Assembly: GCF_023634065.1 (NCBI RefSeq)
Contig: NZ_JALKCV010000002.1
Location: 124,001-188,000, forward strand
Length of the DNA stretch: 64,000 nucleotides
Source: Microbulbifer litoralis
Lineage (GTDB): Bacteria > Pseudomonadota > Gammaproteobacteria > Pseudomonadales > Cellvibrionaceae
Reading direction: 5' to 3'
Part shown: one piece after another, positions 900-23,293 of the stretch
How positions within the stretch are numbered: the first letter of the stretch is position 1
How the letters are laid out: each line of letters starts with the position of its first letter
Translations under genes and position numbers: made by a program
The notes under the pieces: model-generated
Database searches by the model: none
The model's input: the letters and a program-made list of their open reading frames with translations, nothing else
What the model was told of the DNA's origin: nothing

Positions 900-2099
900 G
901 TGACGAATTACAGCCCCAGATTCAGCCAACTGAGCGAAGCCCTGAGCGGGGACGATGCCAATGTCTGGGCGGTCAGTGACCGCGCCCACGAACTGGCCGA
1001 CCAGGGTGAGGATGTCATTTTCCTGTGTGTGGGCGACCCCAATTTCGACACCCCGGAGCCGATTCTCGATTACACCCGCGCGCGGCTCGGCGTCGGCCGC
1101 ACCCACTACTCCCCGGACGCCGGCGAGCCGGTGCTGCGCCGCGCCATCGCCAATATCGAGAGCAAGGTCTCGCCGCACCCCTGCAGCCCGGACGACGTGG
1201 TGGTGTTTCCCGGCGGCACCAACGCCATCTACGCGGTGCTCGCCTGCCTGCTGAACCCCGGTGAGGAAATCCTGATCCCGGAGCCGATGTATATCGGCTA
1301 CGTGCCCATCTGCGACGCGCTGCGCCTGAAGATGAAAAAGGTGGCCTGCCCGGCGGACAATAACTTCGCCTTCGATGTGGACGATATCGTGGCCGCGATC
1401 GGCGACGACACGCGCGTGGTGATGATCAACACCCCGGTCAATCCCACCGGTGCCATGGCCACACCGGAACAGCTGCGCGAACTGGCGGCCCACTGCCGCG
1501 AGCGCGGTATCTGGCTGGTGTGCGACGAGATGTACTCGATGATCACCTTCGCCCGCCGCCACACCTCCCTGCGCACTGCCGCCGAGCACCTGGACAATGT
1601 GGTGGTGATCGACGGCCTGTCCAAGTCCCACGCCATGAGCGGCTGGCGCCTCGGCTGGGCCGTGGCCCAGGGGCCACTGGTGGAGCGCCTGACCCAGTTT
1701 GCCGGCGCCACCATTTTCGGCTGCCCGCAGTTTATCCAGGAGGCCGCCGCCTTCGCGCTGGAGTTCGATACCTACTTCGTCGAGCAGATGCGCTCCGCTT
1801 ATCAAAAGCGCCGCGACCTGATCGTTGAGCGCATCGGCCGCATCCCGGGCCTGAGTTGCTACTCGCCGGACGCGGGCATGTTCGTGATGGTGGATGTCTC
1901 TCGGGTAGCGGATTCGGGTGAAGCCTTTGCCGAGGCGTTGCTGGATGCCGAGCGGGTGTCGGTACTGCCCGGCGCGCCCTTCGGCGCCAGCGCCGCCAAC
2001 CACGTGCGCCTGACCCTGGCCGCGGAAGAGGGCGAACTCGCCCGCGCACTGGACCGCATCGAGCATTTCGTCACCAGCGGCAACCGGCGCGCCAGCTAA
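900..2099 (+). CDS. Class I/II PLP-dependent aminotransferase, AruH-like
   Basis: A 399-residue fold-type I aminotransferase. Visible motifs are NTPVNPTGAM (substrate/PLP region), CDEMYSMITF (the PLP-pyridine aspartate) and SKSHAMSGWRLGW with the Schiff-base lysine at about residue 242. From memory of the family, the whole protein closely parallels Pseudomonas AruH, arginine:pyruvate transaminase: the N-terminal YSPRFSQLS, FIQEAA and PDAGMFVMVDVSR blocks all correspond. Arginine or another basic amino acid is therefore a plausible amino donor, but specificity is inferred. The GTG start is the first usable codon after an in-frame TAG at 891. An Lrp/AsnC gene follows 113 bp downstream, as is common for amino-acid catabolic enzymes. 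Confidence 0.85.
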   Translation: MTNYSPRFSQLSEALSGDDANVWAVSDRAHELADQGEDVIFLCVGDPNFDTPEPILDYTRARLGVGRTHYSPDAGEPVLRRAIANIESKVSPHPCSPDDVVVFPGGTNAIYAVLACLLNPGEEILIPEPMYIGYVPICDALRLKMKKVACPADNNFAFDVDDIVAAIGDDTRVVMINTPVNPTGAMATPEQLRELAAHCRERGIWLVCDEMYSMITFARRHTSLRTAAEHLDNVVVIDGLSKSHAMSGWRLGWAVAQGPLVERLTQFAGATIFGCPQFIQEAAAFALEFDTYFVEQMRSAYQKRRDLIVERIGRIPGLSCYSPDAGMFVMVDVSRVADSGEAFAEALLDAERVSVLPGAPFGASAANHVRLTLAAEEGELARALDRIEHFVTSGNRRAS

Positions 2100-2104
2100 T
2101 CGTA

Positions 2105-2137
2105 CAGGGTGCACCGCCTTCCCGGCGGTGCGCCCTG
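2105..2137 (+). terminator. Strong hairpin after the aminotransferase gene
   Basis: Two 14-bp arms (2105-2118 and 2124-2137) pair with one mismatch around a 5-base loop, beginning 6 bp after the aminotransferase stop. Only a short T-rich stretch follows (gtgtttcgat), so it may be a weak terminator or an mRNA-stabilising hairpin between the aminotransferase and Lrp genes. Confidence 0.5.
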
Positions 2138-2212
2138 CGTGTTTCGATCCCCGAAGAATGCCGCTATCCTTCCCCTTTTGGCACAGAACTTTCCTGTAAG
2201 AAGAACAACCGC

Positions 2213-2689
2213 GTGAAAATAGATCGCCACAACCTGAAAATTCTGGAGGCGCTGCAGACCAACGCGCGCATCAGCAACCTGAATTTGAGCGAACAGATCG
2301 GCCTGTCCGAGAGCGCCTGCCTGGCGCGGGTCAAACGCCTGACCAGCGAGCGCTACATCCGCGAGTTTCTCGCCGAAGTGAACCTGGACAAGGTGCGCCA
2401 CGCCGAGTTCTACGTGAACGTGGCGCTGAAGCGCCAGGATGCGCGCACCAGCGAGAATTTCCGCCGCGCCATCGACGCCATTCCGCAGATCGTCTCCTGC
2501 GTGAAAATGTCGGGGGAATTCGATTACATGCTGCGCTTCGTATGCCCGGACGCGGCGGATTTCAACCGCGTGTCCGAGCAGCTACTGGCCGAAGAGGACG
2601 CCGCGATTTCCCGCATGACCTCCCACCTGGTGATCGAAAAGACCAAGCCGTTTACCGGCTACCCGCTGGAGCTGCTGTTTCAGGACTGA
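2213..2689 (+). CDS. Lrp/AsnC-family transcriptional regulator
   Basis: A 158-residue protein with the standard feast/famine layout. An N-terminal AsnC-type helix-turn-helix (about residues 1-60; ILEALQTNARISNLNLSEQI, then a recognition helix with ESACLARVKRLTSE) is followed by a RAM ligand-binding and oligomerisation domain (about 65-150; SCVKMSGEFDYMLRF). Such proteins usually sense an amino acid and control adjacent catabolic or transport genes, so the preceding aminotransferase is the likely target; that link is inferred from position. The start is GTG with a weak AAGAAG upstream. The last 10 bases overlap the 3' end of the convergent gene on the other strand. Confidence 0.9.
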   Translation: MKIDRHNLKILEALQTNARISNLNLSEQIGLSESACLARVKRLTSERYIREFLAEVNLDKVRHAEFYVNVALKRQDARTSENFRRAIDAIPQIVSCVKMSGEFDYMLRFVCPDAADFNRVSEQLLAEEDAAISRMTSHLVIEKTKPFTGYPLELLFQD

Positions 2690-3273
2690 GTGTCGCGACC
2701 CGCTTGACTGTCGTCGCTGCCTGAGGCGTGTTTCCCGGCCAGGGGTCGATAGAGAAGTTCCGCCGCTGTCTGCCAACTGACACCGCCGTCGCCGGATACC
2801 TGCCAGGTGCGCTGCAGATGGCCATTGCCCAGCGGCTGCCAGACGACCCGGTGTCGCTCCCGCGCCTGCAGGTCGTACTGGAGCCGGCCGGTCATGATCA
2901 TCGCGCCATCGTGAATCCCCCCTTCCAGCACCATCAGCAGGCCGCTGTTGTCGATCCAGCTGTGATTCCACAGCTGCCGGCGGGCGTCGTAAGCGCTGTA
3001 GCCGCGGCCGCGGTGGTGACCCCGGCCGGACCAGTTTTCCGCAATCGCACAGCCACCAAGTATTTTTTCGATACGGTTCTCGCCGAGTCTGTTGCCCTTG
3101 GCATCCAGCACCTCCCAGTGACCCAGCAGAAAATCGAACTGGCGGTAGGCCTCGGCACGGCAGTTTTCACCCGATTGCGAGCGGGCCGTGCCGGCGGCAA
3201 TGACAAGAAAGATGGCCAGGCAGAGTGTCGTAACACCCGCCCGCAGATCCCGTTCCTCAATGGCTGTAGACAT
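2680..3273 (-). CDS. Secreted DUF1579-like protein
   Basis: A 197-residue protein of unknown function. The start at 3273 has a good ribosome site (GGAGG) and gives a signal peptide (TTLCLAIFLVIAAGTARS); frames extending upstream of it lack one. The mature part begins FDFLLGHWEVLDAKGNRLGE and continues with RIEKILGGCAIAENW, a pattern typical of DUF1579-like small beta-barrel proteins that begin 'FDFWxGxW'. These are probably periplasmic or extracellular; no catalytic role is established. The gene converges on the Lrp gene and overlaps it by 10 bp tail to tail. Confidence 0.75.
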   Translation of the reverse strand: MSTAIEERDLRAGVTTLCLAIFLVIAAGTARSQSGENCRAEAYRQFDFLLGHWEVLDAKGNRLGENRIEKILGGCAIAENWSGRGHHRGRGYSAYDARRQLWNHSWIDNSGLLMVLEGGIHDGAMIMTGRLQYDLQARERHRVVWQPLGNGHLQRTWQVSGDGGVSWQTAAELLYRPLAGKHASGSDDSQAGRDTQS

Positions 3274-11117: not shown

Positions 11118-12170
11118 CTATGTTTCCCGCTGCAACAGCGCGCGCTTGCGTTCCACGCCCCAGCGGTAGCCGGACAGGCCGCCGTCGCTGCGCACGACCC
11201 GGTGGCAGGGGATGGCCACCGCCAGCCGGTTGGCGGCGCAGGCCCCGGCGACGGCGCGCACGGCGTTCGGGTTGCCCAACCGCTTCGCCACCTCGGCGTA
11301 GCTGAGGGTCTGGCCGGGGGGAATCTGCCGCAACAGCTGCCAGACCCGCTGCTGGAAGGCGGTGCCGCGGATATCCAGCGGCAGGTCCAGGCCGAGTTCC
11401 GGCGCCTCCACAAATCCCACGACGCGGGCTACCAGTTGCTCGAATTCCCGGTCTCCGGCGATCAGGTTGGCGTTCGGGAACTGGTCCTGCAGTTCGTGCA
11501 CCAGCGCTTGCGGGTCTTCCCCGAGCGAGATGGCACAGATCCCGCGGCGGCTGCGGGCCACCAGGATGGCCCCCAGGGAGCACTGGCCCACGGCGAAGTG
11601 GATATCGGTCCCGGTGCCGCCGGCGCGATAGCGGCTCGGGGTCATGCCCAGGAGCTGGTCCGAGTTTTCGTAGAAGCGGCCGCTGGAGTTGTAGCCGGAC
11701 TGGTAGATGGCCTCGGTGACCGAAGCGCCCGCCGCCAGGGCCCGGCGCACCTTGCCGGAGCGCACCGCTGCCGCATAGTCGCGGGGTGTCAGGCCGGTGA
11801 CCGCCTTGAAGCGGCGCTGCAGGTAATAGCGGCTCCAGCCGGCGCGCCGGGCCAGTTCCTCCAGCGTGGGCGGCTGCTCCGCCGACTCGATATGGCGGCA
11901 CAGTTTGGCGATGGTGGCGGCCTGTTCCTGCCGCGGCGAGCGCCGGTCGGGCCGGCAGCGTTTGCAGGGCCGGAAACCGGCCTGCTCGGCCTCGGCCGGC
12001 GTGTCGAAGAAACGGATATGTTCGGGCCGCGCGGCCCGGGACGGACAGCTCGGGCGGCAGTAGATCCCGGTGGTCAGCACCGAATAGACAAAGGCGCCGT
12101 CGGCCCCCGGGCGGCGCTCCGCCACGGCGGCCCAGCGGGGATCGTCTGGGGTGTGTTCGCTGGTCGCCAT
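11118..12170 (-). CDS. ada: Ada: bifunctional methylphosphotriester/O6-methylguanine-DNA methyltransferase and activator
   Basis: A 350-residue protein with the complete Ada layout. The N-terminal zinc domain has Cys38 and Cys42 in YCRPSC and a second pair in FRPCKRCRPD (Cys38 is the methylphosphotriester acceptor in E. coli Ada). An AraC-type helix-turn-helix follows (about 90-180). The C-terminal O6-methylguanine methyltransferase has active-site Cys322 in PCHRVV. Methyl transfer to the N-domain turns Ada into an activator of the adaptive response. The start at 12170 has CAGAGGAG upstream. A palindrome fitting AAT-N6-GCAA on both strands lies in the divergent spacer at 12342-12356, consistent with self-regulation and possible control of the neighbouring dehydrogenase. 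Confidence 0.95.
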   Translation of the reverse strand: MATSEHTPDDPRWAAVAERRPGADGAFVYSVLTTGIYCRPSCPSRAARPEHIRFFDTPAEAEQAGFRPCKRCRPDRRSPRQEQAATIAKLCRHIESAEQPPTLEELARRAGWSRYYLQRRFKAVTGLTPRDYAAAVRSGKVRRALAAGASVTEAIYQSGYNSSGRFYENSDQLLGMTPSRYRAGGTGTDIHFAVGQCSLGAILVARSRRGICAISLGEDPQALVHELQDQFPNANLIAGDREFEQLVARVVGFVEAPELGLDLPLDIRGTAFQQRVWQLLRQIPPGQTLSYAEVAKRLGNPNAVRAVAGACAANRLAVAIPCHRVVRSDGGLSGYRWGVERKRALLQRET

Positions 12171-12341
12171 ATCAATACTCCTCTGCCCGGCTCTTATGCC
12201 CGTAGTGGGTCTATCGGATTCCGGATCCACCATACCCGCAGCAACGGATGCCGACACTCCGCTGATTGCTCTCCAATTGACCGGCAGGCCGGCAGTCTAC
12301 CACTCCGGTGGGCCGCGGCTCCTCCGTTCGGTCCATCCGCG

Positions 12342-13204: not shown

Positions 13205-14341
13205 TTATTCAGAGGGTTTGGGCTCGGGCAATGCGTACTCGTTGTTCTGTACGGACTTGTCCGGCATATAGACCCGGAAGGCGAGGGTCCAGTTGTCGGT
13301 GGGCGCGATCAACAGGTTTTTGGCGTCTTTGCCACAGGTTTCCGGGTTGCCGAAGTGGAGGTCGAAGGTCTTTCCATCTTCGTTTGGCTCAATCTCGTGG
13401 TTCGACAGGCTGGAACCCTCTTCGGTGTGGAGGTAGAGGTCTTCGCCGTAGATGGTCATTGAATAGAAACCCAGGCTGGGATCAGTCATTCCGGGCACCG
13501 GATAGGTGGCGGCGTAGCAGGTGTCCTTGTCGACCTTGTAGGTTTTGAAGGAGTACCAGGCGTGTTCATCCGGCAGCAGGCCGGTGGCCACTGCCGCGCC
13601 TACGTTGATGTCTTCCTGAGGAATGCTGCCGCGTGCACCCATGGTCTTGCTGACACCACGGGTGTCGGCGACCCTGGTGTAGTGATCCTGAAGTTTCTTC
13701 AGTTGTGCTTTGTCCCAGTCGATCACCTTGAATTTCCTGGGAGTGTATCCACTGGGGAAGGTAATTTTGTACTGGTCCTGAATCGCATTCGCTTTGGCTA
13801 TGTCCGCGGGGTCATTGGGGTCCACTTGGGTGCGAACGTTGATCACAACGAAGTCCGTTACAGTTTTCGGGTCGATGGCGTATTCACCCTCGCCATAGTA
13901 GACGTTGTCGGTGACGTGATCGTGCTGCATCACATGGACGGAAACATAGCGGCCGTCTCCCTCGGGAATGCTGACCGTTGCCCCGTGGGAGGCGTCGATG
14001 ATCGCAAACGAGTAGAGGGTGTCCCGGTTCATCAGCACCGCGGGCTGTTTGTCGAGTTCCATCGGTTTGCGGTGGTGGTAGAAGCGATTGACCGCACCCA
14101 GCTTCGCCTCTTTTTCCATGGCGACGTCGAGATTGGCAAAAGCAAAATTTTCCTTGGTGACGGGAACCTCTTTTTTGCCGACCAGCTTGGTTTCCAGTTC
14201 GCGCGCCTTGTCGAGCGTGAGCAGCGGAACCGAACTGTCGCTGGCGGCGGAGGCTGTAAACGCTCCTGCAGCTGCGGCCAGGGCGCATAGCAATAACGTC
14301 AACTGGGTGGTTTTGCGATGCATGAGTCGTGTCAGATTCAT
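13205..14341 (-). CDS. Secreted DUF1254/DUF1214 domain protein
   Basis: A 378-residue protein with a signal peptide (LTLLLCALAAAAGAFTASAA). The N-terminal part (about 45-190) carries DUF1254-type sequence around NRFYHHRKPMELDKQPAVLM and NRDTLYSFAIIDAS. The C-terminal part (about 265-370) carries DUF1214-type sequence ending NLLIAPTDNWTLAFRVYMPD. These domains are widespread in periplasmic proteins of unknown function. The start at 14341 has CAGGAAAT upstream. Directly upstream on the same strand is a decayed sequence resembling the C-terminus of the same family, suggesting an old tandem pair. Confidence 0.82.
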   Translation of the reverse strand: MNLTRLMHRKTTQLTLLLCALAAAAGAFTASAASDSSVPLLTLDKARELETKLVGKKEVPVTKENFAFANLDVAMEKEAKLGAVNRFYHHRKPMELDKQPAVLMNRDTLYSFAIIDASHGATVSIPEGDGRYVSVHVMQHDHVTDNVYYGEGEYAIDPKTVTDFVVINVRTQVDPNDPADIAKANAIQDQYKITFPSGYTPRKFKVIDWDKAQLKKLQDHYTRVADTRGVSKTMGARGSIPQEDINVGAAVATGLLPDEHAWYSFKTYKVDKDTCYAATYPVPGMTDPSLGFYSMTIYGEDLYLHTEEGSSLSNHEIEPNEDGKTFDLHFGNPETCGKDAKNLLIAPTDNWTLAFRVYMPDKSVQNNEYALPEPKPSE

Positions 14342-15003: not shown

Positions 15004-15537
15004 TTAGTGAAGATCGCGAACCAGGCGGATGGCCTTGGGTTTGGCCCTTTCACCGTAGGTAAAGGCGCCAGTGACGAAATCGACGTACCAGGAATAGTGG
15101 GTATGGAACCCCGACGGCGAAGAGGACCAGACGCCGGCAGCCGGTGCGTTGTTGAAAACGGCCAGGTTGATGGCGGGGCCGGTACACTGCAGTTCGACCA
15201 GTGTGCCCAGCTCGCGGATATTCGGCAGGCGCCAGTCGCTGTGGCCGGCGAAACCGCCGTCGCCGTTGGCGTTGGGCACATAGGCCAGCGCCTCGGCCCA
15301 GGTCAGCGCCAGTGGCTTTCCCTCGTCGCAGGCTTCGCCGGTGACTCCTTCCAGGCAGGCGCGCCACATCAGGTGCGTCCGGGTATCCACGACGGAGCCG
15401 TTGTCCCCGCGTTGGAAGCGGGAGGATGGCGCCGTCGGGGCGATGGACTCGGGCTTGCAGTGTTGCCCGGTCTGCGCCTCGGATATCGGGGCCATCAAGA
15501 TCAACAACAGTGCCGTATTGCGTATCGTGCCGATCAT
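15004..15537 (-). CDS. Secreted DUF1566 (Lcl_C) domain protein
   Basis: A 177-residue protein with a signal peptide (NTALLLILMAPISEAQ). The DUF1566 domain occupies most of the rest: DTRTHLMWRACLEG, then TWAEALAYV, DWRLPNIRELGTLV, VWSSSP and a final RLVRDLH. This 'W...ALxxx...DWRLPNxxEL' pattern is typical of Lcl_C domains in secreted and surface proteins, with no enzymatic activity assigned. The start at 15537 overlaps the stop of the upstream DUF1566 lipoprotein gene (ATGA), so the two are co-translated. It is the last gene of the four-gene same-strand array that begins at 21717. Confidence 0.85.
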   Translation of the reverse strand: MIGTIRNTALLLILMAPISEAQTGQHCKPESIAPTAPSSRFQRGDNGSVVDTRTHLMWRACLEGVTGEACDEGKPLALTWAEALAYVPNANGDGGFAGHSDWRLPNIRELGTLVELQCTGPAINLAVFNNAPAAGVWSSSPSGFHTHYSWYVDFVTGAFTYGERAKPKAIRLVRDLH

Positions 15538-16400
15538 TTTGCCTCCGGTTCCCGGGGTTCCCAGTTCCTGACCAGCCGCACATGGCGGCCGTTGTCGCGC
15601 GGCATGGGCGCCGAATAGCCGAACTGGAAATTGACGGCCCAGGCCCTGCCCTGCAGCTTTGCGTCGGGGGAGTGGCTCCAGTAGAAACCGCTCTTTGTAT
15701 TGGGAAAATATGCGGTATCGATGGCCGGGGCGCTGCGCCCGAAGTGCACCAGGCTGGCGAGTTCCTCCAGGGTCGGCAGGCGCCAGTCGCTGAATCCGCA
15801 CAGGCCTCGGCGGTTGATACGGCTGACGAATTCCCCGGTGTTGCAGTAGGTCGGGGGCTTGCCTTCGATGTAGCCGGTGCATTGGTCGTAACGGCTGTTC
15901 CATTCTCCGATGGCGCCGCCGTTGGCACTCTTGTCGGGGTTGTACCAGGTGAACACATCGTCCGCGTCGTGCTTTCCGCGATTGCCGTAGACGCCGTCGG
16001 TGGGCTGTTTGACCTCCCAGGCGAGGCCGGTATTTTTATCCAGCACGCATTGCCAGGCCCGGGCATCGGCGGGCAGGGGCTCGCCTTTGCGGCCGATCTT
16101 GCGAAACGCGAAACCGGCCGCGCCGTCGGCGTCATCGGCAGTGGTGTCCGGGCCGTGGCTGCAGTCCTGCTGGCTGAGGATGTCCCCGGCAATTTTCTCC
16201 CCGTCGGGCAGGAGCGTTGCGTCGATGGTGGCGCTGCAATCGCGGTTGACGCCCCTGGGATAATCCGCCCCCCAGGTGATGCCGGTGTCGTTGAGGCGAG
16301 GCCGTGGCGATGCGGCATCCCCGTCGGGTTTCGAGCATCCGCCGGCACCGGCCATTGCGAGCACCAGCGCGACAACTGCTATTTTTCTGCTTTCTAGCAT
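15534..16400 (-). CDS. DUF1566 (Lcl_C) lipoprotein
   Basis: A 288-residue protein with a lipoprotein signal: hydrophobic stretch IAVVALVLAMAGAGGCS with the modified cysteine near residue 22. The mature part has DKNTGLAWEVK, a cysteine-bearing GLCGFSDWRLPTLEELASLV, FYWSHSP and a final HVRLVRNWEP, i.e. a DUF1566 domain related to the next gene but with a longer N-terminal half containing several cysteines. Since residue +2 after Cys is not Asp, outer-membrane sorting is likely. It follows the DUF1552 gene by 61 bp on the same strand. Confidence 0.85.
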   Translation of the reverse strand: MLESRKIAVVALVLAMAGAGGCSKPDGDAASPRPRLNDTGITWGADYPRGVNRDCSATIDATLLPDGEKIAGDILSQQDCSHGPDTTADDADGAAGFAFRKIGRKGEPLPADARAWQCVLDKNTGLAWEVKQPTDGVYGNRGKHDADDVFTWYNPDKSANGGAIGEWNSRYDQCTGYIEGKPPTYCNTGEFVSRINRRGLCGFSDWRLPTLEELASLVHFGRSAPAIDTAYFPNTKSGFYWSHSPDAKLQGRAWAVNFQFGYSAPMPRDNGRHVRLVRNWEPREPEAK

Positions 16401-16461
16401 ACCGGGTACTTATGAAAAGATAGTTTCGTCCTTCCCTGCACGGTGCCGTTTCCGCTCCCGG

Positions 16462-17703
16462 TCACGTCAATACGCCCGGAATCACTTCGCTTGCATAGCC
16501 CTGGTAGTCCGGGTGCTGGTCGGCCTGCAGTGCCACCGCTGCCGTATGTATCTGGTGCAGCGGGGTGTAGGCGGCGCTGCCGGCATTGGATACACCGCGC
16601 TGGATGGTGCCGCCACCGCCGGCCATGATCAGCGGGATGTCGTTGCTGCCGTGGGCATCGCCGTTGCCCATGTCGGTGACTTCGCAGACGATGGTGCTGT
16701 CGAGTATGCCCCGGTCCCGCAGGCGACTGATCAGGAAGGCCGACAGGCTGCTCAGGTGGGCGCGTGTCTCCCGGTAGTGCGGGTAGGTGGGATCGCCGCC
16801 GTTGCCGCCGTGGATGGACGAGTGATAGGTGTCCTTGAAATCCAGGTAGGGCAGTGCGAACTCGGCGCCGTCGTTACCCAGCGCCAGCGAGCAGGACGCC
16901 GTCAGGTTGCATTCCAGTGCCAGCGCGATGATGTCCGCCTGCAGTTCCGCCTGCTGCTGGAAGGTGGAAAACTCGATCGGAAATGGATCGGGCGCGGTGG
17001 CACCGCCGCAGGACAGGCCGCCGCCGGCCAGGTCCTGCAGGCGTTGCTGGGTTTCCTCGATGGCGGTCAGGTGCGAATCCAGCCGCTGCTGTTCGTAGTT
17101 GCCCAGTTTCGTTTTCAGCGCGTTGACCGCCTCCAGGTGCGCATCCACCGCGTTCAGCTTGGGATCGCCACCGCCGCCCTGCAGGTTGCCGAACAGGTGG
17201 TTGAAGGCATTGAACGGGTTGTCTTCAAACGGCACTTCCGAGCCGTTGTCCTTGGTCAGGGTGCCGTTGCCATTGCTGTGTACGCCCAGGTTGACGTAGG
17301 TGAAGGGCAGGTTGCCGCCGAGGATGCGGCCCATGTTGACGTCGAAGCTGTCGCCGCCCCAGCTGTTGTTGATGATGGTGGGCATGACGCCGTGGCCGCC
17401 GCGGTGGTGGCTCATGCTGCGCAGGAAGTTGCACTCGCCGGCGACGCCGCTGTAGGGCTGCGACATGGCGCCGAAGCTGGTCAGGTCGCTGTTGGGAAAC
17501 CAGTGCTCGGGCAGGGCGCCGTCGGGAACATAGATGATCACCGATTTGTTGGGTGCGGTCTGGGCCTCGGCCCAGCGGGACACCATCATGCCGGTGACCA
17601 GCGGCGAGGCCCGCATCAATGCCCCGCTGATACCGGCACCCGCAAAAACTTTCAGTAGATCCCGGCGTCTTTTATCAAATACGTTTTTGTATCGTTCTGC
17701 CAT
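16462..17703 (-). CDS. Tat-exported DUF1552 protein
   Basis: A 413-residue protein. The start at 17703 gives a twin-arginine-type leader, RRRDLLKVFAGAG, followed by a hydrophobic helix, so it is probably exported folded. DUF1552 landmarks include IYVPDGALPEHWFP, FLRSMSHHRGGHG, and near the C-terminus VTDMGNGDAHGSNDIPLIMAG; a late His/Asp-rich HGSND-type motif recalls sulfatase/alkaline-phosphatase-like folds. Its function is not established. DUF1552 genes are regularly found beside DUF1592/DUF1588/DUF1585 genes, exactly as here (133 bp downstream of the fusion gene). Tat export suggests an oligomeric or cofactor-bearing partner of that redox protein. Confidence 0.88.
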   Translation of the reverse strand: MAERYKNVFDKRRRDLLKVFAGAGISGALMRASPLVTGMMVSRWAEAQTAPNKSVIIYVPDGALPEHWFPNSDLTSFGAMSQPYSGVAGECNFLRSMSHHRGGHGVMPTIINNSWGGDSFDVNMGRILGGNLPFTYVNLGVHSNGNGTLTKDNGSEVPFEDNPFNAFNHLFGNLQGGGGDPKLNAVDAHLEAVNALKTKLGNYEQQRLDSHLTAIEETQQRLQDLAGGGLSCGGATAPDPFPIEFSTFQQQAELQADIIALALECNLTASCSLALGNDGAEFALPYLDFKDTYHSSIHGGNGGDPTYPHYRETRAHLSSLSAFLISRLRDRGILDSTIVCEVTDMGNGDAHGSNDIPLIMAGGGGTIQRGVSNAGSAAYTPLHQIHTAAVALQADQHPDYQGYASEVIPGVLT

Positions 17704-17742
17704 GACGTAAACCTTTTTTATTGTTAGAGCCTGTTTGGAGCG

Positions 17743-17816
17743 GTAGGGTGCGCGCGGGCAGAAAAATGCTCCTGCCTTTTTGCACTTCCGCCATCCATGG
17801 CGGTCGCGCACCCTAC
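17743..17816. repeat. Intergenic inverted-repeat element between fusion gene and DUF1552 gene
   Basis: Perfect 12-bp arms, gtagggtgcgcg (17743-17754) and its complement (17805-17816), enclose a smaller ggcag/ctgcc hairpin and a ccgccat/atggcgg palindrome. It looks like a small mobile palindromic element that could act as a transcript-processing or attenuation site inside the operon. Confidence 0.6.
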
Positions 17817-17835
17817 GATTGCGACACTTCGTTGA

Positions 17836-20800
17836 TCAGCGCTGCCATTCCTTGCGATAGCGCACCGCATCCAGCGTGCTCATGTTTTCAAGCATTGTCC
17901 GCGGACCCTGGTCCACCAGGGTGTCGGTCATATCCTGCACCGTGCACAGGTAGCCGTCCTCCTCGAGCGGGTCTAGCTCACGCCCCTCCGGGTTCGTGTT
18001 GTCGATGCTGTCGTGCCCGACTCCGAGCATGAAGCGGAACATGTTCTGGGAGACGCAGGACTGGGCACTGGGCAGTGTCGACAACACCTGGCCCAGGCCG
18101 CGGGAGCCGTCGAACTCGATCCACTCGCCGCGGTTGCTCAGCACATCCGGTGCGTACAACCGGCCGCTGGCATCGATCGCATTGCCATTCAGGTCGACGC
18201 TGCGCGGGTTGCCCACCGCGTTGAAGTCCTCCATGCCACCGCCGAGCGGGTTGATCCACTCCTGGTGGCAGTTGAGGCATGGCGACACCGACGTCAGCGC
18301 CTCGTACTTCGTGCGGTTGGTGGTGGTCGGGTCGGCGATCAGGTCCGCCAGTTCCTCGAGCCTTTCCGCGCGGCTTTCGGCGATGCCGGCGGGCGGGTCG
18401 GGCTGGTCCTGGCACAGCATGCGGCGGCGCACGCGCACGGAGCGGCGGATGGGCGAGGTCTCGGTGCGCTCGGCCCAGCGCGCCATAAAGGCACCGCTGG
18501 TGAGGATGCCGCCGCGGTCGCTGGTTGCGACCCGCTGGAAGTCGTCGCCGCTGACGTCGTCGATGCCGTAGTGCTGTGCCAGCGGGCCGTTGACGAAGGT
18601 CCAGTCGGCGTCATACAGGGAGGCGAAGGACTCCTCGCTGTTCAGCATCACCTCGGCGAAGACTTCGCGGATTTCGCGCTCCATGTGCGGCGCCACCTCC
18701 TCGAAGCCGGACCAGGTATCCGCATCCTTGGGGGATTTCTCCAGGTTGTCCGTGTCCAGCCAGCTGCCGACGAAATTGCCCATGGTGTCCCTGGCCTGGG
18801 CCAGGTCGAGCAGGCGCTGCGCCTCCTGGCGGATCTGGGCCGGCTGGCGCAGGGCGTCGTTGGCGGCCTTCTGCAGCGCGGTGTCGTCCGGTGTGGAGCC
18901 GGTGAACGAGTAGCTCAGCCAGGTGGCCATTTCGTGCGAGGTCAGTTCGAACGCGTTCGCGTCTATCTCGCCGTTGGCCGGGTTGGCCTCACCCAGTTCG
19001 TGGCGGTACAGGAACTGCGGCGACGACAGCATGGTCATCAGCGCCAGCTGGATGCCGGTGTGCACGTCGCCTTCGGTGAAGGTGCCGTTGGCCAGTTCGG
19101 TGTAGGTGGCGACTTCCCCGCTGTCCAGCGGGCGGCGGAACAGCCTGGGCGCGAAGTCGCCGATAAACTGGTCCACGCAGTCCTGGTTGAAGGTGTCGCA
19201 GTTCAGCGCCGGCGCGTAGTCGCGCGTTGCCGACCAGGCCGCGATCTCTTCCGCGGCCGTCAGGTAGCGGTCGTAGGTGCCGGTGACGATCGACGCGTGT
19301 GCATTGTTGATGAAGTAGCCCACCCTGCTGTCTTCGGCCAGGCCGTCGGCGGCCGCGAAATCGACACCCAGCAGGTCCCCGACCGTGTTCTGGTACTCGG
19401 ACCGGGTGAGGATCTTCAACTGGCGGGCGCCGTAGCGGACGATGCTGCAGTTGGGCGGCTCCTGATCTTCCCAGAAGGTGTCGGCGATGTAGTTGCCCAC
19501 CTTGTCCGCGCAGTCTGCGTCGCAGATTTGCGGCTGTCCCTGGGGCATGCTCTCCTCGATAAACCCGATCATGAAATCCAGGTCCTGGGGCGTGGTCAGC
19601 GGGATGCCCACGGAACCGCCGTCGCCGGCAAAACCGTGGCAGTGGGCGCACTGCGCGCTGTAGATCTCGGAGCCGGTCATATTGCCGGTGCCGCCGCTGC
19701 TGGAGGAACTCGAACTGCTGGACGACGAGCTGGAGCTGCTACTGGACGAGCTGCCCGAACCGCTGCACTCCGGCATTGCAAAGCTGCCGTCGTGGTCGCC
19801 CTGGAAGCCGAACGAGGTACTGCCGCCCGGCGCGAGATTACCGTTCCAGCCCACATCGCTGGCGGTGGCGGTATTGCCGGATACGCTGATGTCCACATTC
19901 CAGCTGCCGGTGACCTGCGGCGGTTCGCTGAATTGCAGCGCGATCTGCCAGGCACTGACGGCGCTGGCACCGCCGTTGGTGACGGTCACATCCAGCTGGT
20001 AACCGCTGTTCCAGATATTGTCGCCGGTGATGGAACAGGAGACGCCATCGCCGCTACCGCCACTGGAAGAGGTACTGGAAGTCGAGCTGCTGGAGGTGGA
20101 ACTGCTGCTGGACGAACTGCTGGACGAAGAACTGGAACTGCTGGAGTCGCCGCCGCCCTCTGCAACAATCCGGTGCAGGCCGCCGCCGGCGATATCCACC
20201 ACGTAGACTTCGCCGGCGTTGGAGCGGCCGAACGATGTGATACCTAGATTGGTATCCGCCAGCGGGTACATGGCGTCGGTGTAGGCCCAGATCCTGCCAC
20301 TCTGGTAGTCGCCGAAGATATAGGCCCCGCCCATGCCGGCGATCTGTGTGCCGCGGTAGACATAACCGCCGGTGATCGACTGGCCCTGGCTGTGGTCATA
20401 CTCGAACAGCGGCTCGTCGTAGGGACCGCTGCTGTTGCAGCTGTTGGCAGTGGTGTGGAAACCCTCCCGGCAGCGCCAGCCGTAGTTGCCGCCGTTCTCG
20501 ATGATATTCACTTCCTCGTATTCCGCCTGGCCCACGTCCGCCAGCCACAGTGCGCCGGTGACGCTGTCGAAGCTCCAGCGCCAGGGGTTTCGCAGGCCGT
20601 AGGCGTAGATTTCCGGCAGGCCGCCGCCGCTGGTGAAGGGGTTGTCCGGCGGAATGCCGTAGGGGGAGCCGCTGTCCACGTCGATCCGCAGCATGGAGCC
20701 GTGCCAGGTGCCGGTATCCTGGCCGTTGGCCTCCGGGTCGTTGGCGGAGCCGCCGTCGCCGAAACCGATATACAGGTAGCCGTCGGGGCCGAAACCTATC

Positions 20801-21717
20801 TGGCCGCCGTTGTGGTTGGCGTAGGGCTGCTCGAGGGTGAGGATGTCCGTGCGCGAGGCGGCGTCGAGGGCTGTGCCGCTGGCGTTCTCGCTGTAGCGCG
20901 CGATCACCGATGTCATCGGCTCGGTATCCGCGGTGGTGAACGACAGGTACACCTGACCGTTGTTCTGGTAGTCGGGGTGGAAGGCCATGCCGAGCAGGCC
21001 GCCCTCGACCGCGGTATCCACCAGGTTGGAGAGATCCAGGTAGGTGTTCTTGCTGGATGTCGCATCATTGTTGGCGTCGATCCAGTAGACGGTGCCGGTT
21101 TTCTCCAGCACATACCAGCGGGAATCGTCCCCCGGCGCCTGCATCAAGCCGAGCGGCTGGCTGAAGGTCAGGTTCGGGAAGGCCCGCTCGATTTCCACTG
21201 CCGGCGGCGGACCGCTGGGGCCGCCGCTGCCCGAGGAACTGGAGCTGCTCGACGAGGAGCTGCTGGAAGAGCTGGAACTCGAGGACGAGCTGGAACTGCT
21301 GGACGAGCTCGAGCTGCTGGAGGAACTGGAGCTGTTGCCGCCGTCGCAGACCGCCCCGCTGACGGCCGGCGTCGCCGCGCTGCCGGAACCGTTGCTGACC
21401 TGCATGCCGAACTCGGCGTACTGCCCCGGCTGGATGCTGCCGTTCCAGGACAGGTTGCCCGCGGTGTAGGGGTTGTCACCGGATACATTGGCGTTCCAGC
21501 TGTCGGTCACGGCGGTGCCGTCACTGTATTCCCATGCCACCTCCCAGCCGTCGAGGGCACTGGAGCCGTCGTTGGTGATGCGGATGGTGGCCTGGGCGCC
21601 GGAACCCCAGTCGTTGACCACCGTGTATTCACAGGTGGCCGCGATTGCGCTCTGTATCATGCTCCACGCACAGAAGAACAGAAATAACGATGATATTTTC
21701 GTGGCGGGGTTTTTCAT
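17836..21717 (-). CDS. CBM2 - PQQ-type sugar dehydrogenase - CBM2 - cytochrome c - DUF1592-family fusion
   Basis: A 1293-residue secreted protein. After a signal peptide (SLFLFFCAWSMIQSAIA) the order is: CBM2 (about 28-125; CEYTVVNDWGSGAQATIRIT, cysteine pair, W residues), about 33 serines (129-161), a PQQ-dependent sugar dehydrogenase-like beta-propeller (about 175-515; GGLLGMAFHPDYQNNGQVYL, NHNGGQIGFGPDGYLYIGFG, GLRNPWRWSFD, YGWRCREG), poly-Ser, a second CBM2 (about 560-650), poly-Ser, a cytochrome c domain with CAHCH (about 690), then DUF1587 (LTRSEYQNTVGDLLG), DUF1595 (APRLFRRPL), DUF1592, DUF1588 with a second heme motif CLNCH (about 1145), and DUF1585. It should bind crystalline polysaccharide and move electrons from a sugar to heme. 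The start at 21717 has AGGAAAT upstream. Substrate and acceptor are unknown. Confidence 0.9.
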   Translation of the reverse strand: MKNPATKISSLFLFFCAWSMIQSAIAATCEYTVVNDWGSGAQATIRITNDGSSALDGWEVAWEYSDGTAVTDSWNANVSGDNPYTAGNLSWNGSIQPGQYAEFGMQVSNGSGSAATPAVSGAVCDGGNSSSSSSSSSSSSSSSSSSSSSSSSSSSSSSSSSSGSGGPSGPPPAVEIERAFPNLTFSQPLGLMQAPGDDSRWYVLEKTGTVYWIDANNDATSSKNTYLDLSNLVDTAVEGGLLGMAFHPDYQNNGQVYLSFTTADTEPMTSVIARYSENASGTALDAASRTDILTLEQPYANHNGGQIGFGPDGYLYIGFGDGGSANDPEANGQDTGTWHGSMLRIDVDSGSPYGIPPDNPFTSGGGLPEIYAYGLRNPWRWSFDSVTGALWLADVGQAEYEEVNIIENGGNYGWRCREGFHTTANSCNSSGPYDEPLFEYDHSQGQSITGGYVYRGTQIAGMGGAYIFGDYQSGRIWAYTDAMYPLADTNLGITSFGRSNAGEVYVVDIAGGGLHRIVAEGGGDSSSSSSSSSSSSSSSSTSSSSTSSTSSSGGSGDGVSCSITGDNIWNSGYQLDVTVTNGGASAVSAWQIALQFSEPPQVTGSWNVDISVSGNTATASDVGWNGNLAPGGSTSFGFQGDHDGSFAMPECSGSGSSSSSSSSSSSSSSSSSSSGGTGNMTGSEIYSAQCAHCHGFAGDGGSVGIPLTTPQDLDFMIGFIEESMPQGQPQICDADCADKVGNYIADTFWEDQEPPNCSIVRYGARQLKILTRSEYQNTVGDLLGVDFAAADGLAEDSRVGYFINNAHASIVTGTYDRYLTAAEEIAAWSATRDYAPALNCDTFNQDCVDQFIGDFAPRLFRRPLDSGEVATYTELANGTFTEGDVHTGIQLALMTMLSSPQFLYRHELGEANPANGEIDANAFELTSHEMATWLSYSFTGSTPDDTALQKAANDALRQPAQIRQEAQRLLDLAQARDTMGNFVGSWLDTDNLEKSPKDADTWSGFEEVAPHMEREIREVFAEVMLNSEESFASLYDADWTFVNGPLAQHYGIDDVSGDDFQRVATSDRGGILTSGAFMARWAERTETSPIRRSVRVRRRMLCQDQPDPPAGIAESRAERLEELADLIADPTTTNRTKYEALTSVSPCLNCHQEWINPLGGGMEDFNAVGNPRSVDLNGNAIDASGRLYAPDVLSNRGEWIEFDGSRGLGQVLSTLPSAQSCVSQNMFRFMLGVGHDSIDNTNPEGRELDPLEEDGYLCTVQDMTDTLVDQGPRTMLENMSTLDAVRYRKEWQR

Positions 21718-22228
21718 TATTATTTCCTGCACCGTCAAGAGGTAAATGGATGCCGCCGTCGACCGGTGGCGCCTTTACTGCTTCGTAATTTCCAGGGGAG
21801 CTGGTGTCGGATAGAACAGGGGCGGCCGTCGACCGGCAACGCGTCGTTCTACCAGCTCAGCTTGAGGTGCGGAAAAAAGGTCTGGGATGATTCCTGTTTG
21901 AAGAACAGAAGAATCTCCCGGTCTTATTTTTATTGTTCGGTTTTTATTTTTTCTGTTTTGCTTGCCGGGCCCACTGTCTTTTTACTTTTTATCTTATCGA
22001 CATTCGACATCTGCTGTTGGCATTTATTCTCATTCGGCATCAATGCGACAGTTTCCGAGGTGAGCCGGGAGCCAATGTAAACGCTTCCATTTTAATCCAC
22101 AACTGTTGCAAGGGGATTTGGCGCTACTTTCATTTTGCGCTATTTGGCGGCTGGGATTATGAGAATCCGGTCACGGTAAAATGGGCTTTCCTTTTGTGTT
22201 GTCCCTTCGGAAAGCGGGCGCTGCCATA
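21718..22228. promoter_or_regulatory. 510-bp regulatory spacer upstream of the CBM2/DUF1592 fusion array
   Basis: No convincing gene. The part from about 21890 to 22190 is markedly AT-rich compared with its surroundings and would form the promoter/leader of the minus-strand fusion gene. The motif gtcgaccgg occurs twice (near 21757 and 21830). A LacI-type operator-like site lies at 22076-22089. The AraC-type regulator gene ends at the right edge. Confidence 0.5.
22076..22089. promoter_or_regulatory. LacI/GalR-type operator-like palindrome
   Basis: The sequence tgtaaacgcttcca has the CG-centred symmetry of LacI-family operators (TGnAAnCGnTTnCA), with five of seven half-site positions symmetric and ATG/CAT flanks. 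It is about 360 bp upstream of the CBM2/DUF1592 start. No LacI-family gene is in the window. Confidence 0.45.
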
Positions 22229-23293
22229 TCAGGCCGGCAGCTGTTCGCGCCGGTACTCGGTGGGAGTCCTGTTGTGGCGGCGTTTGAAGGCGGCATTGAA
22301 AGGGCTCAGGGAGCGGTAACCAATATCCAGGGCGATGGAGAGCACCGGCAGGTGTGCCTGGCCCGGGTCGGCGAGGCGCGCGCTGGCTTCGTCGATACGG
22401 AACTGGTTCAGGTATTCGTTGAAGTTGCGGTAGCCCAGGTGGCGGTTGATCAGTACCCGCAGCACGTGCTCGCGGGCATCCAGCTGTTCCGCCAGCGTGC
22501 GGATGGTGAGCCCGGTGTAGCGGTAGCCGCCGTTGTTCATGTGGGCGTGGAGCTTTTCCAACAGTTGCAGCTGGTGTTCGTCCAGCGGTTCCGGACGCGT
22601 TTCCTTATTCTCGGCGACCGCGGGGCTGTCCTCCGCTTTGGGCATCGACTCGACCAGCGCGGCCGGCGACAGCGCCAGCAACCACAGGCAGGCGGCGAGG
22701 GTCAGCAGGCTGGCGAGAACCGCGTGCAGCGTCGGCACGCCGGCGGGAACCGGCTGGTAGGAAAACAGGAATTCGGCGCAGATCACGATCAGCATATAGC
22801 CGCCCACGGCGATCAGCAGCGCCGCCCGCAGCCGACGCCGCGCGGCCACCAGGTCCGACTGGTAGCGCTGCAGCAGGGCGACCATGCCGGCGGCGATCAA
22901 GCCCAGTTTGAGCGGCTGTGAAAGTACGTAGAGCACTTCGTGCAGCAGGGAGGTTTGCGGAAAATCGATATAACCGGCGGCCACGGAGACCAGCACGGAG
23001 AGTCCCACCGGAAGCCAGCCCCAGCGCGGGAAGGATTCCCCCTCGCTGCTGAGCAGGTGTGCGAACAGCCAGAAGGCCGCCGGAACCAGTATCGTGGGCA
23101 GGTCGAGCAGGAACCCGATAAAGCGGTTCTCCAGCGGCAGCAGTGGTCGCAGCAGGTAGCAGAAAACCCCGGTGATCAGCAGGAGCAGCCAGCGCCCGGC
23201 GGCCTGTTGCCGATACCCGATTGCCAGCCGCGCCGCCGCCAGCAACAACAGGCCGCAGGCACTGCCGGAAAAAAATACAAACCACTCGCTCAT
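22229..23293 (-). CDS. Membrane-embedded AraC-family transcriptional regulator
   Basis: A 354-residue protein. About seven hydrophobic helices occupy residues 5-215, followed by a charged linker (EDSPAVAENKETRPEPLDE) and a C-terminal AraC/XylS DNA-binding domain (about 245-350; LTIRTLAEQLDAREHVLRVL, then SIALDIGYRSLSPFNAAFKR and a final TPTEYRR). This '7TM plus AraC' layout is common in marine gammaproteobacteria and lets a membrane signal control transcription directly. It lies immediately upstream of the CBM2/DUF1592 array on the same strand, so it is a reasonable candidate regulator of it; that is positional inference. Confidence 0.85.
   Translation of the reverse strand: MSEWFVFFSGSACGLLLLAAARLAIGYRQQAAGRWLLLLITGVFCYLLRPLLPLENRFIGFLLDLPTILVPAAFWLFAHLLSSEGESFPRWGWLPVGLSVLVSVAAGYIDFPQTSLLHEVLYVLSQPLKLGLIAAGMVALLQRYQSDLVAARRRLRAALLIAVGGYMLIVICAEFLFSYQPVPAGVPTLHAVLASLLTLAACLWLLALSPAALVESMPKAEDSPAVAENKETRPEPLDEHQLQLLEKLHAHMNNGGYRYTGLTIRTLAEQLDAREHVLRVLINRHLGYRNFNEYLNQFRIDEASARLADPGQAHLPVLSIALDIGYRSLSPFNAAFKRRHNRTPTEYRREQLPA

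Follow-up and report, generated by a model that had tools for sequence, protein, structure and literature searches.

A single protein that carries cellulose-binding modules, a dehydrogenase-like propeller and haem-binding motifs raises the question of what chemistry it performs on its polysaccharide, and with which partner. Such a protein is encoded in the stretch of Microbulbifer litoralis DNA analysed here, 64,000 nucleotides of RefSeq assembly GCF_023634065.1 (contig NZ_JALKCV010000002.1, positions 124,001 to 188,000 of the forward strand; called the window throughout), where five genes follow one another between positions 15004 and 23293: a membrane AraC-type regulator, the fusion protein, a DUF1552 protein and two DUF1566 proteins. 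The original prediction, made from the letters alone, had placed all five on one strand in this order, and open reading frame coordinates and Pfam matches confirm it, with every gene on the minus strand. It had also interpreted them as an extracellular redox apparatus built on a pyrroloquinoline quinone (PQQ) dehydrogenase. That interpretation survives in part: the c-type haem, the link to cellulose and the conserved DUF1552 and DUF1566 neighbours are supported, while a working PQQ enzyme and the inclusion of the AraC gene are not. Judged by its domains, the fusion protein belongs to the known class of Cbp2D and TERTU_3803, in which X183 and X132 domains are joined to carbohydrate-binding modules (CBMs). 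We consider it probable that the locus encodes an accessory complex of the Cbp2D type, oxidative or redox in function and held on cellulose, in which X132 and the DUF1552 protein would be the working pair, X183 a relay, the propeller a module that does not use PQQ, and the DUF1566 proteins lectin-like partners.

Class of the fusion protein

The fusion gene (17836..21717, minus strand; ATG at 21717, stop codon at 17836-17838) encodes 1293 residues with a Sec-type signal peptide, read from the sequence, and Ser-rich linkers. Its product begins with a Pfam CBM_2 domain (residues 27-124, 21346..21639), followed by a GSDH-like propeller (residues 181-519, 20161..21177; 3.7e-45), a second CBM_2 stretch with approximate limits 19738..20046 (5.7e-51 for the two copies; CBM49 at residues 573-638), a cytochrome c domain (residues 681-744, 19486..19677; Cytochrome_CBB3, 1.6e-7) and a C-terminal region (17839..19467) containing DUF1587 (3.2e-14), DUF1595 (1.2e-20), DUF1592 (6e-36) and DUF1588 (1.5e-23). 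This is the architecture that had been predicted, with the exception of DUF1585 (PSD2), which was not found in the C-terminal pieces at E<=1 and is present in some relatives. Two CxxCH motifs are encoded, CAHCH in the cytochrome domain (19650-19636) and CLNCH in DUF1588 (18279-18265). We infer that the four C-terminal Pfam domains correspond to X132, because the same four occupy the C-terminal position in Cbp2D and because DUF1587 is named for Cbp2D in a figure legend in the available part of PMC8981238.

A search with an X132 profile led to 414 confirmed relatives, and the best 80 of these make up the named loci discussed below; the closest of them at this locus belong to Microbulbifer. Residue conservation was read from two alignments, A2 (51 of the 80 named loci and the window, after removal of L089, with its X residues, and of numerous near-duplicates) and A3 (50 and the window). 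The axial His and Met of the cytochrome are kept in all 34 aligned rows that cover this domain. In X132 the CxxCH occurs in all 52 rows and is accompanied by no other conserved His. A model of the cytochrome together with X132 (predicted local distance difference test score, pLDDT, 91.2; predicted template-modelling score, pTM, 0.84) retrieved TtX183A first (8q1v, E 4.3e-3, prob 1.00) and CjX183 second (7b21, E 0.27, prob 1.00) in a Foldseek search of the PDB; no match reached E 0.001 and X132 was covered by nothing credible, nor did phmmer match the X132 region to the PDB at the threshold used. A phmmer search with the cytochrome domain alone gave nothing in the PDB at E<=0.1, which counts against the X183-like assignment. 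The cytochrome is nonetheless an X183-like His/Met c-type domain, as in Cbp2D and TERTU_3803.

One relative (L133) was taken as TERTU_3803 of Teredinibacter turnerae because its X122 stretch matches PDB 8q28 with 559 bits over 241 residues; it reads CBM10 - X122 - SGL - GSDH - CBM2 - cytochrome - DUF1587-1588. The window's protein shares with it the GSDH-like X173, CBM2, X183 and X132 in the same order (PMC10916295), with 60% identity in X132 (over 535 positions) and 65% in GSDH, and in both cases DUF1552 and two DUF1566 genes lie downstream. The difference is at the N-terminus, where TERTU_3803 has CBM10, X122 and SGL (pf08450) and the window's protein starts with CBM2. A second relative (L155) is Cbp2D of Cellvibrio japonicus (PMC12542752, PMC8981238), since its X183 matches PDB 7b21. 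This locus encodes Cbp2E, Cbp2D (1122 residues) and, starting 47 bp behind cbp2D, a DUF1552 protein of 402 residues that is 39% identical to the window's (Pfam 3e-30). CBM2, the cytochrome, DUF1587-1595-1592-1588 and the downstream DUF1552 gene are common to both, and the X132 regions are 39% identical over 560 aligned positions. Where the window's protein has its propeller, Cbp2D has a YceI-like X158, a domain that the Pfam scan did not find in the former; Cbp2D also has a Cbp2E gene upstream, and no DUF1566 match lies within the 18 kb examined around cbp2D.

The fusion of CBM, propeller and DUF1592, which had been called unusual, is thus already in print as TERTU_3803, and the cassette was seen in at least 20 of 144 genomes of the family, a lower bound set by the loci inspected, in genera that include Teredinibacter. 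The available part of PMC12055684 likens the TERTU_3803 homologue to AA12 and suggests that its modular architecture is perhaps unique to T. turnerae; the relatives described here answer that remark in the negative. In the window's own genome (4.99 Mb, 40 contigs) the fusion is the sole DUF1592 match.

The X132-DUF1552 pair

The gene directly downstream (16462..17703, minus strand; ATG at 17703), separated from the fusion by 132 bp, encodes a DUF1552 (HXXSHH) protein of 413 residues (Pfam 1.9e-38). It had been described as a twin-arginine translocation (Tat) substrate, and Arg13 and Arg14 of its twin-arginine signal are indeed kept in 51 of 51 aligned sequences. The recurrence of DUF1592 and DUF1552 genes as neighbours, also asserted beforehand, is likewise borne out. 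At the named loci, which include Pseudoalteromonas, Alteromonas, Catenovulum, Methylococcus, Marinobacter, Myxococcota and one Planctomycetaceae metagenome-assembled genome (MAG), a DUF1552 gene follows on the same strand behind 80 of 82 X132 genes, the first matched DUF1552 codon lying a median of 33 nt from the X132 stop. The gene at L103 runs off its contig, and that at L122 is a real exception. The same arrangement holds for 44 of 44 genes at 43 loci within the family, chosen mostly for long frames and several of them the same places as named loci. Across the 144 family genomes used for co-occurrence counts, DUF1592 is over the cut-off in 75 and DUF1552 is found in the same 75 (G009, with DUF1592 at E 9.9e-4, fell below the cut-off and was left out).

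The open-access literature yielded no paper that treats DUF1592 together with DUF1552 and none that names HXXSHH, and the available parts of PMC12542752, PMC10916295 and PMC8981238 make no mention of a DUF1552 gene behind cbp2D or TERTU_3803. In Verrucomicrobia the idea of a pairing is not new, because the available part of PMC5615132 reports that planctomycete-type PSCyt3 genes usually adjoin a gene family of unknown function. These PSCyt3/PSD genes share the Pfam domains of X132 and some bear CBMs; they differ in being predicted as periplasmic or cytoplasmic and in their CBM types, and no cellulose link was found in that source (PMC5615132). Four family genomes (G051, G055, G056 and G058) have 24-29 DUF1592 matches each. 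Expansion of DUF1592 is typical of Planctomycetes. The locus tag CJA_2617, which may be wrong, gave no match in the literature searched.

Myxobacterial X132 proteins have one CxxCH each, and the one scanned with Pfam (L119) contains only X132 domains plus DUF1585; X132 with DUF1552 therefore looks like the core, to which the other modules would be additions. This also bears on the proposal of a pure electron conduit, in which a multihaem cytochrome tethered to cellulose would move electrons between the cell and an external donor or acceptor and DUF1552 would serve assembly or maturation only. Most relatives with fused modules have the CxxCH motif at least twice, which fits such a conduit, as do the His/Met electron-transfer haem of X183 and potentials of +11 to +124 mV for T. 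turnerae X183 domains (PMC10916295, in the part available); however, the single CxxCH of the myxobacterial proteins argues against a chain of haems in the core pair, and X132, with its many invariant polar residues, greatly exceeds a relay domain in size. We consider a pure conduit unlikely.

The DUF1552 model (pLDDT 84.6, pTM 0.89) matches sulfatases and LtaS in Foldseek (best E 7e-5, prob 1.00), pointing to a sulfatase/alkaline-phosphatase fold, although the match is remote (template-modelling score about 0.4, root-mean-square deviation above 9 Å); phmmer matched the protein to nothing in the PDB at the threshold used. Should DUF1552 be an active sulfatase- or phosphatase-type hydrolase, the fusion would serve only to target it to polysaccharide. 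The fold match favours this, as does the placing of sulfatase genes beside PSCyt genes in Verrucomicrobia (available part of PMC5615132), but no conserved Cys, Ser or Thr nucleophile and no Asp pair occurs where sequence order would place them, the metal Asp expected at position 61 varies between D, G and N, and the invariant residues are His (H104, H294 and H298 in 51 of 51 sequences, H351 in 50 of 50). An active hydrolase is very improbable in our estimate, and we take DUF1552 for a putative lost hydrolase with a His-rich site, its nucleophile apparently gone.

A bolder proposal, which we offer tentatively and hold to be more probably wrong than right, is that X132 and DUF1552 together constitute a secreted oxidative enzyme of a new kind, made up of a c-type haem with no strictly conserved sixth ligand and a sulfatase-fold partner rebuilt around four invariant His. 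If so, different lineages would have fused the haem half to whichever module suits their polysaccharide, among them CBM2, CBM10, CBM26, YceI, the propeller resembling Hedgehog-interacting protein, a Cip1-like domain and, in one MAG, GH5 with an esterase; the pair would be the reason that Cbp2D matters on insoluble cellulose, and a part missing from an E. coli strain that carries six C. japonicus genes. The fusions themselves are varied. YceI and CBM2 accompany X132 in Cbp2D and L068, and Cip1-like domains with three cytochrome stretches in L101. A protein of 2171 residues in a gammaproteobacterial MAG (L050:9268-15780; named copy L106) reads CBM2 - GH5 cellulase - esterase - CBM9 - cytochrome c - X132, so that a cellulase is joined directly to the haem module in one protein, with DUF1552 downstream. 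A relative in the genus (L138:9767-15505, genome G064) has two CBM26 stretches, a more distant GSDH-like propeller, a cytochrome and X132, then DUF1552, which suggests a module re-targeted to starch; it is the one inspected of seven genus genomes whose sole DUF1592 is of a weaker type.

The pair may have a wider kinship. In profile comparisons DUF1552 resembles DUF1501 (probability 64%, E 6.5e-5; control DUF1552 against DUF1800, 0.1%), a resemblance that is suggestive only, and X132 against DUF1800 gave a probability of 0.2%. The DUF1800 hidden Markov model, on the other hand, matches one DUF1592 protein at 1.2e-6 (G116:C1:1261800-1262015). Going by this match and the DUF1501 resemblance, the DUF1800-DUF1501 and DUF1592-DUF1552 gene pairs may have a common origin.

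The propeller, electron supply and cellulose

The original prediction took the propeller for a PQQ-dependent, AA12-like sugar dehydrogenase, held on cellulose and passing electrons through its own cytochrome to an AA10 lytic polysaccharide monooxygenase (LPMO) or to the respiratory chain. It does belong to the GSDH propeller family, like AA12 pyranose dehydrogenases and soluble PQQ glucose dehydrogenase, and it retains the catalytic-type His and the Arg-Asn pair when aligned to E. coli YliI. The same alignment shows that the GALK Lys and both Arg of RIRDV, positions which we take from structures of soluble glucose dehydrogenase to bind PQQ, are replaced in the window's protein and in all 11 related sequences, identity being low in this part. 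In a sequence search of the PDB the propeller is matched best by Hedgehog-interacting protein (2.5e-33), and less well by soluble glucose dehydrogenase (1.5e-24). PqqC, present in 11 of the 144 family genomes, was found neither in the window's own genome nor in any of the 20 cassette genomes, other Pqq genes not having been searched for. The pf08450-X173 domain pair of TERTU_3803, tested as a construct of nucleotides 1243-3204 (about residues 415-1068, covering SGL and GSDH), showed no PQQ binding and no glucose dehydrogenase activity in the available part of PMC10916295. Because the PQQ residues are absent, PqqC was not found and the TERTU_3803 domains failed the PQQ tests, the PQQ reading of the propeller is probably wrong, and we rejected a PQQ enzyme as the identity of this module; PQQ could still be taken up from outside.

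As to the second half of that proposal, feeding an LPMO, the window's own genome has 2 AA10 genes, 18 of the 20 cassette genomes have AA10 (G050 by a weak match), and C. japonicus X183 reduces LPMOs, slowly (available part of PMC8981238); the fungal CcPDH of AA12 has a similar domain set (available part of PMC12055684), in favour of the proposal as a whole. Against LPMO feeding, X183 domains of T. turnerae, taken from TERTU_2913, failed to drive the LPMO of that species (available part of PMC10916295), two of the 20 cassette genomes (G086 and G098) have GH6 with no AA10 found, and 13 of the 75 DUF1592 genomes lack an AA10 match, other LPMO families not having been searched for in either case. 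LPMO feeding is thus not obligatory, and it is doubtful. Taken as a whole, a PQQ enzyme supplying an LPMO or the respiratory chain seems to us improbable.

What the cassette follows in the genus is cellobiohydrolase. Among its 48 genomes GH6 occurs in 8 of the 11 with the cassette and 2 of the 37 without (Fisher p 1.7e-5, by a test that ignores shared ancestry), whereas AA10 (9/11 against 23/37, p 0.29) and GH18 (10/11 against 32/37, p 1.0) show no association. Family-wide, GH6 is present in 49 of 75 genomes with DUF1592 and 6 of 69 without. The GH6 association in the genus agrees with the growth pattern of mutants: loss of cbp2D/E impairs growth on filter paper, whereas growth on chitin is unharmed (PMC12542752 and PMC13227985, in the parts available), as is growth on xylan, pectin or yeast cells (PMC13227985). 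The TERTU_3803 homologue was present in the secretome of cellulose-grown T. turnerae (available part of PMC12055684), and, for a wheat-straw community, a Cellvibrio protein with CBM2 and DUF1592 is listed with the proteins found in the biotin-labelled fraction only (available part of PMC6004670). By analogy with the TERTU_3803 homologue and the Cbp2D mutants, the predicted secreted, polysaccharide-binding c-haem protein would indeed be linked to cellulose.

We propose the following mechanism. The two CBM2 domains would hold the fusion protein on cellulose, and the propeller, non-PQQ and similar to Hedgehog-interacting protein, would serve binding or docking. The His/Met haem of X183 would act as an electron relay, and the haem of X132, which has no strictly conserved second His or Met, would be the likely reactive center. 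X132 may work together with the Tat-exported, sulfatase-fold DUF1552 protein, in which the nucleophile site appears to have become His-rich and perhaps metal-binding, and the two could perform or assist an oxidation of crystalline cellulose or of products derived from it. They would act alongside hydrolases such as GH6, with no obligate need of an AA10 LPMO. The DUF1566 proteins, C-type-lectin-like, would add a surface or lipoprotein component that may keep glycan or the complex at the cell. DUF1552 may be a missing part in explaining what Cbp2D-class proteins do when C. japonicus and T. turnerae attack insoluble cellulose.

Several observations, besides the disregard of ancestry in the Fisher tests, weigh against this mechanism. 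Catalysis and the contact between X132 and DUF1552 are read from conservation and gene order alone; the four His of DUF1552 could be structural, and M343 (43 of 52 rows) or M606 (31 of the 37 rows reaching it) of X132 is a possible haem ligand in most members. The named loci are not independent, 16 of them being Pseudoalteromonas. Pairs of X132 and DUF1552 occur in Methylococcus, where cellulose is an unlikely substrate, albeit in proteins with CBM2-like stretches, and the myxobacterial L119 protein apparently has no CBM. Three of the 11 cassette genomes in the genus (G073, G089 and G102) have no GH6, and family-wide DUF1592 is associated with AA10 (62/75 against 28/69, Fisher 1.8e-7), which also favours the LPMO model. 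The filter-paper defect of Cbp2D/E mutants is called modest by its authors, who still describe both proteins as LPMO electron donors (available part of PMC13227985). Finally, six C. japonicus genes including cbp2D and cbp2E gave E. coli W no growth on insoluble cellulose, and the authors ascribe this to poor activity or export of Lpmo10B or Cbp2D/E (available part of PMC12542752).

DUF1566 proteins, the AraC gene and flanking genes

The two remaining genes downstream encode DUF1566 proteins (now Lcl_C, PF07603; Pfam 3e-29 and 1e-32), A of 288 residues (15534..16400, minus strand) with a lipobox-like signal read from the sequence, and B of 176 residues (15004..15537, minus strand), which overlaps A by the predicted ATGA. 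All 10 genus relatives inspected have the fusion, DUF1552 and DUF1566A in the order seen here, so this arrangement is not a matter of chance. A full-length match to B is present in 9 of the 10, as a separate gene in four and in one frame with A in five; the tenth (L032) has only a partial match of 46 residues, in frame with A. Both are conserved neighbours of the fusion, added in this clade specifically. In Legionella Lcl, the domain that bears DUF1566 resembles C-type lectins and binds glycosaminoglycans (available part of PMC11162425); A itself gave three chance-level matches to the PDB (E 0.19-0.49).

Upstream, the AraC-type gene (22229..23293, minus strand) encodes seven hydrophobic segments, as predicted, and an HTH_18 domain, and ends 511 bp before the fusion. 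It lies near the fusion in only 2 of the 10 genus relatives and is for this reason a neighbour only; its place inside the conserved unit was given up and it was rejected as a member of the system. A scan for promoters and terminators was uninformative: it gave 3 promoter-like sites where 1.3 were expected and 1 terminator-like site where 7.4 were expected. The cassette is closely followed, at 13205-14341 of the window, by an apparently unrelated DUF1254/DUF1214 protein. Farther on, at 11118-12257, the sequence reads as an Ada-like DNA repair/AraC protein, next to which lies a short-chain dehydrogenase gene on the opposite strand.

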